This document shows positions 36,806 through 39,921 of a DNA stretch of 41,982 nucleotides, one piece after another; the first letter of the stretch is position 1; each line of letters begins with the position of its first letter. The stretch is from an uncultured Mucilaginibacter sp. (GTDB lineage: Bacteria > Bacteroidota > Bacteroidia > Sphingobacteriales > Sphingobacteriaceae), in contig CAIYNX010000230.1 of NCBI GenBank assembly GCA_903927645.1, positions 1 through 41,982 of the forward strand, read 5' to 3'. The notes under the pieces were generated by a model. That model searched no databases. It had not been told where the DNA came from and saw nothing but the letters and a program-made list of their open reading frames with translations. The translations under genes were made by a program, and so were the position numbers.

Positions 36806-37912
36806 ATGGCTCGTGCAAAGAATAAGAAAAAAAATAACTTTAGTATAGTCGATAAGATTGTCTTAATTCTTAATGGCATAGCTGTAGCTTTGTTACTACT
36901 AAGTTATTTGGCACCAATTGTTGACCCCCGTGACTTTACAATTATTGCGATATTGGGTTTTGGGTATTTAGCTTTGCTGGCTACCAATTGTATGTTTATT
37001 ATTTACTGGGCAGTACGCTTTAAAATTTTCTTCTTGATATCAGCCTTGAGTATATTATTAGGATTCAAGGTATTGACTGCAAATTTTGGTTTCAATTTTC
37101 AAAAACAGGTAGCGCGAGCCGAGGCAAATATACACATGATGGCCTACAATGTTCATGGTTTTGTTGGGATTGATAGCTACGAAGGGGACTCTATACACGC
37201 TGGTGTTTTAGATCTGGTAAATGACTATCAACCTGATATTTTAAACTTCGAGGAATTTTCAGAAGAGCGCAATCCCAATAGACTTCAGATCATAGACTCT
37301 GTTAAAAAAGTTCTAAAAACTGAGCATTATTTTTTTAAGTCGTTTTCTAAAAATCGCAGGCAATTTTCAGGCAACGCCATTTTTACGAAATTTCCTATAA
37401 TTGATACAGGTGTAATTCCCACACCAGGCTTTTTTAAGATCAGGTCAATATTTGTTGATTTAAGGTATGGAAAAAAAACCCTAAGGGTTTATTCTGTTCA
37501 CCTGACTGCGGTTAATATTCAGGAAAACGAAAAACGCCGCTATTTAAATGGGAAATTGAACGTCGATAACTCCACATTTATTAGAAATAGACTTAATTCT
37601 GCCTTTGTCCTGAGAAGTTTGGAGGTATCGGTCATAAAAAAGCATATGGCTAAATGCCCTTACCCGTATATTGTAGCTGGGGATTTTAATGATACACCCA
37701 ACTCGTTCGCTGTTAATACACTTAGTGATGGATTGAAAAATACATTTATTGAGAAAGGCAATGGACTGGGGGCAACTTATTACAGTAAATTTTCATTATT
37801 GCACATCGATTATATTTTAACCAGTCCCCAGTTTGATGTTGTAAATTACCAGGTTATTGAAAAAAAGCTTTCAGATCATAAGCCTATTATTAGTGAATTG
37901 ATCTTAAGATAA
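36806..37912 (+). CDS. Membrane-anchored endonuclease/exonuclease/phosphatase family protein
   Basis: A 368-residue protein. A TTG 33 bases upstream (36773) keeps the frame open, but the ATG at 36806 starts a natural basic N-terminus. Three hydrophobic helices occupy about residues 15-90. The EEP fold follows: MMAYNVHGF near 111-119, PDILNFEEF near 142-150, GNAIFTKFPI near 187-196, VYSVHLTA near 224-231, VAGDFNDTPNSF near 291-302 and LSDHKPIISEL at the end. These carry the metal- and phosphate-binding Asn, Glu, Asp and His. Members cut nucleic acids, phosphoinositides or lipids. The active site probably faces outside the cytoplasm. A possible -7 box TATTTTTA is at 36765-36772. Confidence 0.85.
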   Translation: MARAKNKKKNNFSIVDKIVLILNGIAVALLLLSYLAPIVDPRDFTIIAILGFGYLALLATNCMFIIYWAVRFKIFFLISALSILLGFKVLTANFGFNFQKQVARAEANIHMMAYNVHGFVGIDSYEGDSIHAGVLDLVNDYQPDILNFEEFSEERNPNRLQIIDSVKKVLKTEHYFFKSFSKNRRQFSGNAIFTKFPIIDTGVIPTPGFFKIRSIFVDLRYGKKTLRVYSVHLTAVNIQENEKRRYLNGKLNVDNSTFIRNRLNSAFVLRSLEVSVIKKHMAKCPYPYIVAGDFNDTPNSFAVNTLSDGLKNTFIEKGNGLGATYYSKFSLLHIDYILTSPQFDVVNYQVIEKKLSDHKPIISELILR

Positions 37913-37961
37913 CAAAAATCTGCTTATGGTAATATTTTCCGATGACGTATCATCCTAAAAC

Positions 37962-37994
37962 AAAAAAAGACGGATAGCTGATGCCATTCGTCTT
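37962..37994 (-). terminator. Terminator of the micropeptide array
   Basis: On the minus strand AAGACGAAT and ATCCGTCTT (plus 37967-37975 and 37986-37994) form a 9-bp stem with one G-T pair and a 10-base loop, followed by a run of seven T. It lies 28 bases past the stop codon of the third micropeptide gene and marks the end of that transcript. Confidence 0.7.
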
Positions 37995-38021
37995 AACCTT
38001 TATAAATGAAATATGAAGTTA

Positions 38022-38099
38022 TTATGCTCTTTTTTTAGCTGGAACAAGTGGCAATAAAATAACTGCGATTAATGCGGCAACTTCTAATACGATTAACAT
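38022..38099 (-). CDS. 25-residue membrane micropeptide, tandem copy 1
   Basis: An ATG-to-TAA frame of 26 codons. The peptide is one hydrophobic helix (about residues 2-19, with Glu6 near its start), then PLVPA and a basic end KKRA. It is one of three tandem paralogues. Relative to copy 2 the codons differ at four sites, three of them synonymous and one Leu/Ile, which is the sign of a translated, selected gene. The bases before the ATG (AAAAATTAAAGTC) are conserved in all three copies and probably hold the ribosome site. Function unknown; size, charge and repetition recall membrane-acting small toxins or signalling peptides. Confidence 0.75.
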   Translation of the reverse strand: MLIVLEVAALIAVILLPLVPAKKRA

Positions 38100-38152
38100 G
38101 ACTTTAATTTTTTAATGATGATAAATGAACTTTAATGATTTGCTTAAAATAA

Positions 38153-38230
38153 TTAAGCTCTTTTTTTAGCTGGAACAAGTGGTAATAAAATAACTGCTAT
38201 TAATGCGGCAACTTCTAATACGATTATCAT
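38153..38230 (-). CDS. 25-residue membrane micropeptide, tandem copy 2
   Basis: A frame of 26 codons whose product is the same as copy 1 except Ile for Leu at residue 2. It has the hydrophobic helix with Glu6, then PLVPAKKRA. The leader TTAAAAATTAAAGTT is shared with the other copies. A spacer of 53 bp separates it from copy 1 and 59 bp from copy 3. Much of the similarity between copies falls in the coding part and the 15 bases before the ATG, and spacers diverge, which supports the reading frame as the conserved object. Confidence 0.75.
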   Translation of the reverse strand: MIIVLEVAALIAVILLPLVPAKKRA

Positions 38231-38289
38231 AACTTTAATTTTTAATAAGTGTGACTATAAATAAATTTTGGCGAAATGATTTAAACTGA

Positions 38290-38367
38290 TTAAGCTTTTT
38301 TTCTTGCTGGAACAAGTGGCAACAAAATAACAGCAATCATAACGGCAACTTCTAATACTACTAACAT
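38290..38367 (-). CDS. 25-residue membrane micropeptide, tandem copy 3
   Basis: The first gene of the array in the direction of transcription and the most divergent copy. Against copy 1 it has Val for Ile3, Val for Ala9, Met for Leu10 and Arg/Lys swaps in the basic tail (PLVPARKKA); other codon changes are synonymous. All changes keep hydrophobicity or charge. Its leader again reads AAAAATTAAAGTC directly before the ATG. The promoter should lie beyond 38367, but no clean box was found. Confidence 0.75.
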   Translation of the reverse strand: MLVVLEVAVMIAVILLPLVPARKKA

Positions 38368-39162
38368 GACTTTAATTTTTAAAATGGTGATTGTAAATTA
38401 ATTTTTTTTGTGAACCATTTACCATTCTTCAAAGCGTCTTTCAATTTTATCTTCGGGACCGGATTTCAGAACATATGTATTCTGCGTGGTTACCGTCTAA
38501 AAATATGCCACATTGATATATCCTTTTTTAGAAAGAAAACAGTCGAAAATGGAAATTGTATAAATTTCAAAATCATCGAAAAAAAAAGCTCAAAGTTCAA
38601 TTTTAATCATGTTTTTTTGGTCAAAGACTCAAAAAAGTATGATTAAACCCGCAAGTACACCTGTTTTTTTTTATTTTATGAATTATAAATCGAAAAATTG
38701 GAAGTTAAAGGCAATAAACCCCCGAAAAAGGGAAAAGTAATTCATGCAATGGTTAATGATAACACCTGTGTGAAAAATTATTACAGGGTTAGGCATTTTA
38801 AGGAAAAAACAGCCTGAAAAAAGATATTTGTAAAGTTGATTTTCATTTAAAGAAATATTTGCCAAAATGTCATAAAGCATGACAATGTCATGCTTTATGA
38901 CATTTTGGCGTTTAAAAAGCATGACAAATGCCTGCCAAAAGCCATGAATTCGTTATTAATGGGGATTGTGATCAAAATTCGGTCTATGCCAAAAAAAACC
39001 AATAAACGTTACAGGGATTCAAAAATGTCATAATTTACAATTTTAGTGCAAAAAAGGTATGGCCTATTACATTAATGGCAATGTTTCTTAGTTTCTGCCG
39101 CTAAATTAATATTATGTAATGCGCCACGAAGTGGTTTAGGATGTAATATTGCAATAGGATTG
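38368..39162. other. 795-bp region between batE and the micropeptides
   Basis: No convincing long gene. It contains the 49-bp palindrome (38861-38909) and two shorter related sites at 38916-38927 and 39022-39033. On the minus strand just upstream of the micropeptides a frame reads TTQNTYVLKSGPEDKIERR then FEEW and a stop (about 38405-38480); it lacks a start codon and may be the tail of a lost gene. Promoters for the micropeptide array should lie in this region. Confidence 0.4.
38861..38909. repeat. Perfect 49-bp palindrome made of two dyads
   Basis: The arms (38861-38884 and 38886-38909) are perfect 24-bp inverted repeats with one A between them, starting GCCAAAATGTCAT. Each arm itself contains a dyad TGTCAT-N5-ATGACA (38868-38884 and 38886-38902). 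Related single sites lie nearby: AAAGCATGACAA at 38916-38927 and AAAATGTCATAA at 39022-39033. There is no T run on either strand, so it is not a standard terminator. It could be a double operator, a replication or recombination site, or a small mobile repeat. Confidence 0.85.
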
Positions 39163-39921
39163 TTAAATTTCGCGGGTATCAGCAAGCTTTATCCAGCCCT
39201 GGTTGCCATTAACCATGCTGATATTGATCCAGCCATTGGTTTTTTCCAGAATATTCACCTTGGTGCCTTCGTGAATGATAAAAAGAGTGCGCTGGCGGTC
39301 GGTTGGGCCGCTTTTAACGTTGACAGTGCCATTGAAAATAATTGCTTGCTGGCTGTCATTAAAATAGGCAACCTGGCGGTTTGCTATAAAAAAGGAAAAC
39401 AAGCCCGCAAAAACACAAATCAAAGAAATGTAAAAGGAGAATTTCTTTAATGCGAGTATATTTGTTAACAGGTAAACGATAAAAAGCCCCGATGCCAATA
39501 GTACCATTGTGATACTAATTATTGCAAAAGTTTGCGTTGAAAAACTGAGGATAAAGTTATGCCACCATCTGGTTAAAAAAAATACAGGCGCCGGATCAAT
39601 TTTATCGGTAGTTTTTGCGTTAGCTAGTTTGATATTGAAATTAATATCCTGATCACCAGGGGAGAGTTTATGTGCTTTTTCAAAATAAAGTATTGCAGAT
39701 GGGATTTCGCCCAGTTTATAACTGGCATTGCCCATGTTAAAATACAATGCAGCTGATTGATAACCGCTATTTAAAACGGCGCGGTAATTGTCCAAAGCTT
39801 CTTTGTATTGTGCTTTGTTATAGTTGTTATTACCCTTTATAAAAGTACTATTTGCATGTTCGCTGCCTAATGATAAGAGCGGCAAAACAAATGCAATGAA
39901 AATAAATAAACTGCGCTTCAT
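39163..39921 (-). CDS. batE: BatE-like protein: TPR repeats, two membrane helices, SH3 domain
   Basis: A 252-residue protein when started at the ATG at 39921, which gives a clean signal peptide (KRSLFIFIAFVLPLLSLGS). A longer frame starts 51 bases upstream inside batD and is unlikely. Tetratricopeptide repeats follow (YNKAQYKEALDNYRAVL near residues 33-49; ALYFNMGNASYKLGEIPSAI near 56-75). Two transmembrane helices lie at about 130-155 and 165-185. A bacterial SH3 domain ends it (NVKSGPTDRQRTLFIIHEGT near 206-225, GWINISMVNGNQGWIKL). This is the layout of BatE in the Bacteroidota aerotolerance operon. It is 4 bp after batD. Confidence 0.85.
   Translation of the reverse strand: MKRSLFIFIAFVLPLLSLGSEHANSTFIKGNNNYNKAQYKEALDNYRAVLNSGYQSAALYFNMGNASYKLGEIPSAILYFEKAHKLSPGDQDINFNIKLANAKTTDKIDPAPVFFLTRWWHNFILSFSTQTFAIISITMVLLASGLFIVYLLTNILALKKFSFYISLICVFAGLFSFFIANRQVAYFNDSQQAIIFNGTVNVKSGPTDRQRTLFIIHEGTKVNILEKTNGWINISMVNGNQGWIKLADTREI

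Follow-up and report, generated by a model that had tools for sequence, protein, structure and literature searches.

A perfect 49-bp palindrome in the genome of an uncultured Mucilaginibacter sp. would, in our preferred reading, serve a σ54-type stress regulon as an activator site that is remote, helically phased and looped to the promoter of a micropeptide array via curved DNA, and we assign this reading a probability of roughly 55%. Its building block is also found before heat-shock genes, which makes it probable that the palindrome is a stress switch acting from a distance, as opposed to a stray repeat. In what follows, the window refers to the whole stretch of DNA that was analysed, 41,982 nucleotides of contig CAIYNX010000230.1, and the own genome is the assembly to which it belongs.

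The palindrome and its setting

The palindrome occupies positions 38861-38909 of the window, with two arms of 24 bp each (38861-38884 and 38886-38909) that are 100% complementary around A38885. The runner-up perfect palindrome in the window has arms of only 9 bp, and the stretch 38855-38915, when folded as single-stranded DNA, reaches -26.3 kcal/mol vs -5.7 (sd 1.95) for its shuffled versions. The first-pass annotation had described a perfect palindrome built from two TGTCAT-N5-ATGACA dyads, and it was right on both counts, since the arms match around a single central A and exact copies of the dyad are located at 38868-38884 and 38886-38902. The setting is likewise as it had been described: to the left of the palindrome lie three minus-strand micropeptide open reading frames (ORFs), while the ORF on its right, for which we keep the annotation's label, batE, encodes tetratricopeptide repeats and has an SH3 match slightly below the cut-off. 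The features to which the text refers are the following (position, strand, description).

38861..38909, no strand: perfect 49-bp palindrome; with its flanks it comprises six TGNCA-type boxes spaced 8-12-6-12-8, of which the outermost one on the distal side reads CGCCA, not TGNCA
38860..38884, minus: promoter-proximal half, TGTCATGCTTTATGACATTTTGGCA; counterpart of the genus element, 374 bp to the block
38860..38872, minus: TGNCA-N3-TGNCA pair, TGACATTTTGGCA; 362 bp to the block
38886..38910, no strand: distal mirror half; falls on the -38 and -30 box positions, partly conserved in relatives
38922..38937, minus: two extra TGNCA boxes, TGTCA from 38926 and TGGCA from 38937; offsets -54 and -65 from the pair
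38511..38859, minus: AT-rich spacer of near-fixed length; A-tracts phased at ~10.4 bp, DNA predicted to be curved
38494..38510, minus: conserved block, TGGCATATTTTTAGACG; σ54-like -24/-12 with GG-N10-G
near 38485, minus: expected transcription start, as placed from the σ54-like block
38290..38367, minus: micropeptide ORF 1, MLVVLEVAVMIAVILLPLVPARKKA
38153..38230, minus: micropeptide ORF 2, MIIVLEVAALIAVILLPLVPAKKRA
38022..38099, minus: micropeptide ORF 3, MLIVLEVAALIAVILLPLVPAKKRA
37960..37994, minus: hairpin followed by a U run; possible intrinsic terminator after the array

The last of these features folds with a z of only -1.6, 20 of 200 shuffles folding equally well, and is not among the hits of a terminator pattern scan.

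A conserved element upstream of a micropeptide family

The arrangement of box cluster, spacer, block and micropeptide genes, here called the stanza, recurs in the relatives. A relative-derived pattern, TGTCATG-N4to6-TGACAAWWTGNCA, was searched in 149 genomes of the genus and gave 26 matches in 25 of them, compared with one match for the reversed control; the stanza is thus not universal in the genus. All 26 dyads precede a member of the micropeptide family on the same strand, at 437-532 bp upstream, with the micropeptide start being found directly for 25 and the last one (L063) having a VLDF variant 516 bp downstream. The exact dyad (N5, AAATTG) is present in 21 stretches of a collection of 84,980 species, 18 of which precede the micropeptide while one (L090) is truncated where the locus stops; the exceptions that lack the micropeptide come from Alistipes (L083) and from a Nitrososphaeria contig (L093). 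The own genome is unmatched by the relative-derived pattern because its own pair reads TGACATTTTGGCA, and this pair was recognised by its position. The promoter-proximal half of the palindrome thus corresponds to a conserved element of Mucilaginibacter, and the micropeptide array, ~500 bp away, is its likely target. The first-pass interpretation is supported in part: of the two natures that it had considered, an operator cluster is the one that gains support, from the conserved TGNCA boxes, from their near-fixed distance to the micropeptide family and from the recurrence of the unit at stress genes.

An operator of batE was considered and rejected, as batE adjoins the stanza in just one of 76 other locus records (mostly with ~1.5 kb of flank, and including some duplicates). 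CIRCE/HrcA and LexA-type sites were considered as well, and the TGNCA unit is unlike either.

In a genome of the same class and another family (G119), an AAA+ ATPase gene, MoxR-like by eye, is also preceded by TGACATTTTGGCA at a distance of ~75 bp (L009). The presence of the pair in a different family is a hint that the TGNCA pair is older than the genus.

The box cluster and the origin of the perfect symmetry

The TGTCAT-N5-ATGACA dyad does exist, but the unit is better described as the TGNCA pentamer at fixed offsets. Further TGNCA boxes recur upstream of the pair at offsets -12, -30, ~-54, -65 and -74, and the box count per cluster is 5.85 vs a background of 0.66 (40 loci, the pair itself being required by the search). 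Two half-related sites had also been proposed in the neighbourhood of the palindrome: the first can be retained, as it contains a TGNCA box (38922-38926) whose offset is common to the relatives, whereas the second (box 39026-39030) falls outside the analysed cluster and found no support. As for the distal half, a mirror box at exactly -38 is present with at most one mismatch in 15 of 41 loci (background 3), two of them perfect, and a mirror box at -30 is perfect in 20 of 41, where the 41 loci, as in the loosest-rule box count, are those retained and not a count of successes.

The own genome has a second micropeptide locus (G000:C350:3334-3864; L096, L171), a single-copy one with its own TGNCA cluster and block, called C350 below. 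Boxes at -30, -18, -12, 0 and +8 are present in C350 and also in G003, in both cases without symmetry or identity of sequence. G003 is the nearest relative by htpG among 57 genomes (95% to the own genome) and, when searched, showed a locus of the C350 type and no match to the window array. The halves of the palindrome are in register with the conserved box offsets, and therefore the palindrome, as far as its sequence tells, resembles a quasi-symmetric box cluster that became perfect locally, and not an insertion.

That one half was mirrored by an artefact of assembly or amplification is very improbable. The draft is fragmented and the exact palindrome occurs in one assembly only, as such an artefact would have it, but the palindrome is contig-internal, its flanks differ and its distal outer boxes are in register; moreover, the boxes of C350 and G003 show the equal spacing just described without any identity of sequence.

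The first-pass annotation had named a mobile repeat as the other possibility, and had proposed a genome-wide search for the motif together with its flanking genes. In the own genome, a fragmented draft assembly of 3.74 Mb in 354 contigs with a completeness of 89%, this search places the exact TGTCAT-N5-ATGACA only at the two dyads of the palindrome, and a DNA search with a 200-bp palindrome stretch matches only itself and its own mirror. The same stretch finds short, partial matches in five of the other 148 genomes, four of these being from the same genus, and the perfect palindrome itself was found in none of the 148. There are, then, no scattered copies, and what the occurrences of the element share is a gene family. 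A mobile element or palindromic repeat of the REP, BIME or MITE kind, or else a cruciform without any part in regulation, would account for the perfect 24-bp arms and for the good folding of the single strand; it is nevertheless hardly credible and was rejected, given one copy in place of many, the conserved gene context of the element and the register of both halves with the conserved box offsets, which speaks against insertion.

The promoter-like block and its fixed distance

Alignment of 27 upstream regions reveals one strongly conserved noncoding block between dyad and gene, TGGCAYR-N4-KWG. This block resembles a σ54 promoter of the -24/-12 type with GG-N10-G, the G at +13 being found in 40 of 40 blocks (TGGCA was required by the search). 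The base that follows this invariant G is T in 21, C in 12 and A in 7 of the 40 micropeptide blocks, the window having A; the C at -12 (TTGC) that is typical of σ54 promoters is present in only 12 of 40 micropeptide blocks and in 1 of 30 htpG blocks. The own genome encodes RpoN (PF04552, E 1.7e-56, G000:C102), and from the sequence of the block we infer that σ54 may be used there.

In 25 of 31 distinct loci the dyad and the block are 373-376 bp apart; the remaining distances are 363, 367, 377, 378, 383 and 385 bp. When the pair was searched as TGNCA-N3-TGNCA with at most one mismatch, 320-410 bp upstream, and the candidate with the fewest mismatches was taken, it was located within 351-376 bp upstream of the block in all 37 non-redundant loci with a strict block (loci thinned at 75% identity). 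The strict block is missing in four of 41 loci, and three of these (L012, L033 and L036) have TGGCA 362-363 bp from the pair. The distances form three groups, 351-355 (4 loci), 361-366 (27) and 371-376 bp (6), with no values between them, and the groups differ by about one helical turn; C350, at 352 bp, is about one turn shorter than the window. Helical phasing gives a resultant R of 0.58 for 15 distinct distances at 10.5 bp, with p ~0.006 by exp(-nR2), a value uncorrected for shared ancestry.

The main rival to the activator model is a two-operator repression loop, in which a TGNCA-binding repressor would bridge the distal cluster and a degenerate dyad, namely the block, and, by closing a curved loop, silence the micropeptide promoter until stress. 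Such loops need about whole-turn spacing, as seen here, and the block is readable as TGGCA-N7-WGNCR, in which the 12-bp step of the distal dyad recurs (TGGCATGTTTTGTGTCG, TGGCATGTTTTGTGACA); some blocks even read as another 12-bp-spaced TGNCA dyad, e.g. TGGCATGTTTTGTGACA in L022 and L025, and the C of the second box is kept in 27 of 40 blocks. However, the same C is lost in 13 of 40 (AGTAC, AGCGG, AGCGC, AGCTG and others), and the best conserved positions of the block fit GG-N10-G in 40 of 40, which makes the repression loop rather unlikely in our judgement.

The spacer

The spacers have a mean ungapped identity of 0.39, compared with the ~0.31 that composition alone would give, and a column information of 0.33 vs 0.11 for shifted sequences; the extra information is mostly at A and T tracts, so that the spacer is not wholly free. 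As the spacers share ancestry, the z values for their periodicity are not independent evidence: in 28 spacers the A-tracts peak at 10.3 bp (z 12.5 vs dinucleotide shuffles) and again at 15.8 bp (z 7.9) and 13.2 bp (z 7.3), and in 17 spacers thinned to <45% identity the periodicity is strongest at 10.4 bp for runs of at least 3 (z 10.0) and of at least 4 (z 7.8), and at 10.7 bp for runs of at least 5 (z 6.8). Median band power is 8.98 in the 28 spacers vs 4.42 in 153 AT-rich control stretches taken from the collected loci and the window, and for the window spacer alone the observed periodicity was reached by 6 and 5 of 300 shuffles. From the phasing of the A-tracts at 10.3-10.4 bp, the DNA of the spacer is predicted to be curved. 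A second A-tract periodicity near 16 bp can be seen beside that of 10.4 bp, for example in the window at 38511-38859.

Two other roles for the spacer were set aside. A structured RNA or attenuator was rejected, since RNA folding relative to shuffles, in 16 of 31 spacers, has a mean z of -0.6 for the sense strand (-3.4 to 2.2) and -1.0 for the antisense strand (-4.0 to 0.9), and the 21 Rfam matches listed at E<=1 for 37900-39200 all stay under the gathering score; one spacer, the 15th, folds more strongly (z -3.4 sense, -4.0 antisense). A coding spacer was judged unlikely because the spacer lengths vary by single bases.

The same unit at stress genes

TGNCAWWWTGNCA occurs in 18 places of the own genome (control 5), 12 of them inside ORFs and six intergenic, and the six intergenic sites lie before the window array, the C350 micropeptide and four stress genes, lon, thioredoxin, htpG and clpB. 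These four were named by NCBIfam and Pfam matches, those of Lon, HtpG and ClpB being partial and under the whole-protein cut-offs of NCBIfam, with the substrate-binding domain of Lon above that of Pfam. For htpG, the upstream regions of the best 30 of 57 genomes with an htpG match were compared: in all 30 loci the first TGNCA box lies 25 bp (8 loci) or 26 bp (22 loci) upstream of a GG-N10-G block, TGGAACR-N4-TTG, and both boxes of the pair are perfect in 25. The base after the TTG of this block is A in 23, T in 6 and C in 1 of the 30 loci. The upstream regions of lon, clpB and thioredoxin were considered in the own genome only, and at lon the best -24/-12-like sequence is followed by the pair, which stands 28 nt before the ATG, a repressor-like position that favours the repression loop.

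A distance of 25-26 bp from the -24 block is unusually close for an enhancer-binding protein. It is what would be expected if the boxes were bound by a stress regulator of another kind, such as one of the Bacteroidota heat-shock type, which would act next to the promoter at htpG and remotely at the micropeptide genes; we regard this as distinctly unlikely, given that the 350-bp distance at the micropeptide genes would be most easily explained by a σ54 enhancer. The activator model also agrees with what has been described for other members of the phylum. In Flavobacterium psychrophilum, σ54 promoters (motif SM4) precede groESL, lon, dnaK, grpE-dnaJ, htpG, skp and clpB (PMC9723704), and chaperone genes are enriched among the predicted σ54 targets of Bacteroidota (PMC12316311). 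The portions of these two papers at hand name no activator binding site, and a literature search pointed to no other such paper.

The micropeptide family

The array of the window consists of three tandem minus-strand ORFs of 25 aa each (38022-38367). Members of the family have 25-29 residues with a single hydrophobic stretch and a basic tail, and the three that were scanned have no Pfam or NCBIfam match. The ORFs are read as coding because third codon positions vary most, pairwise differences at the three codon positions amounting to 7346, 2754 and 12219, respectively (first 19 codons of 56 distinct ORFs). Between one and three copies are present per stanza in 25 stanzas of the genus. At E<=1, a micropeptide match was obtained in 54 of 149 genomes, a count that takes in longer hydrophobic homologues, and all 54 belong to one genus among the 54 genera sampled; 36 of 90 genomes of that genus gave no match at this threshold. 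A search with an alignment of 22 peptides found 30 of 251 genomes of the family Sphingobacteriaceae at E<=0.05, 23 of them from the same genus. Five weak matches (E 0.026-0.038) were left out of the family count, and outside the genus the micropeptide is present in two genomes of genus g56 (E 1.8e-11 and 1.8e-7).

The longer homologues (L103-L114, from G050, G068, G066, G045, G041, G027, G049, G022, G042, G026, G019 and G061) have the same hydrophobic core but carry an additional tail, mostly with an NExGxLE-like motif, and an intact TGNCA pair is absent from the 600 bp upstream of them. In two of the 12 (L103 and L114) the gene downstream encodes an NtrC-family response regulator, and these loci (L167, L168) are likely kdp potassium-transport operons, kdp being assigned by eye. 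Proteins with PF00158 are encoded by two members of the genus (L167 and L168). With regard to function, our guess is that the micropeptide either is a small effector in membrane stress or regulates a membrane complex.

A model for the stanza

An enhancer-binding protein that activates the σ54 polymerase by looping is the simplest account of a remote site cluster, a phased spacer and a GG-N10-G promoter. The identity of the regulator, the looping, an activating rather than a repressing role and the signal that induces the operon are inferred. The stanza would consist of a cluster of TGNCA boxes, a curved stretch of ~350 bp kept in fixed helical phase, a promoter of the σ54 type and one to three copies of the micropeptide gene. 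A dimeric or oligomeric regulator, most likely an enhancer-binding protein of the NtrC family, would bind the boxes; the phased A-tracts would bend the spacer and so bring the bound regulator to RNA polymerase at the -24/-12 block. The stress that acts on htpG, lon, clpB and thioredoxin (heat, protein folding or envelope) would also switch on the micropeptide operon. Counted against this model are the unconserved C at -12, the boxes that lie very near the htpG block and the lon pair beyond the -24/-12-like sequence. A broader version can be put forward only tentatively, at somewhat less than even odds: the TGNCA boxes might be bound by an as yet unnamed master regulator that governs the σ54 heat-shock/envelope-stress response of Sphingobacteriaceae and would also control the micropeptides from 36 helical turns away via curved DNA, the length of the spacer being selected and its sequence largely free.

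Comparison with known systems

Searches of open-access papers, Pfam and NCBIfam turned up neither the TGNCA unit, nor the phase-locked, genus-wide spacer of 350 bp, nor the micropeptide family. The closest counterpart at the level of target genes is the σ54 stress regulon of F. psychrophilum, whose lon, htpG and clpB have homologs that carry TGNCA pairs here; as far as its description at hand extends, that regulon comes without an upstream activator motif and without a micropeptide operon with a remote element (PMC9723704). The TGNCA pair is thus a concrete candidate site for fishing out the activator of the σ54 chaperone genes of Bacteroidota, and the micropeptide stanza offers a natural, many-species test of the constraints that helical phase and curvature place on a distant enhancer.

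The conserved membrane micropeptide family, in turn, is a candidate stress effector. TisB, MgtS and AcrZ are stress-induced small membrane peptides, and the micropeptide resembles them in its shortness (25-29 residues), its one hydrophobic stretch and its basic tail; it differs from them in that its three scanned members are without a Pfam or NCBIfam match. The looped two-operator repressor systems lac, gal and ara share with the stanza a spacing of about whole turns between distant sites.

Remote σ54 enhancers and bent spacers are known in principle, and it is the σ54/NtrC-type system with upstream activating sequences that the stanza resembles in the GG-N10-G promoter with its TGGCA-type -24 element, the remote cluster of dyad symmetry, the DNA with phased A-tracts and the presence of rpoN. 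In contrast to that system, the C at -12 is not conserved here, and the spacing of ~350 bp is near-fixed and helically phased.
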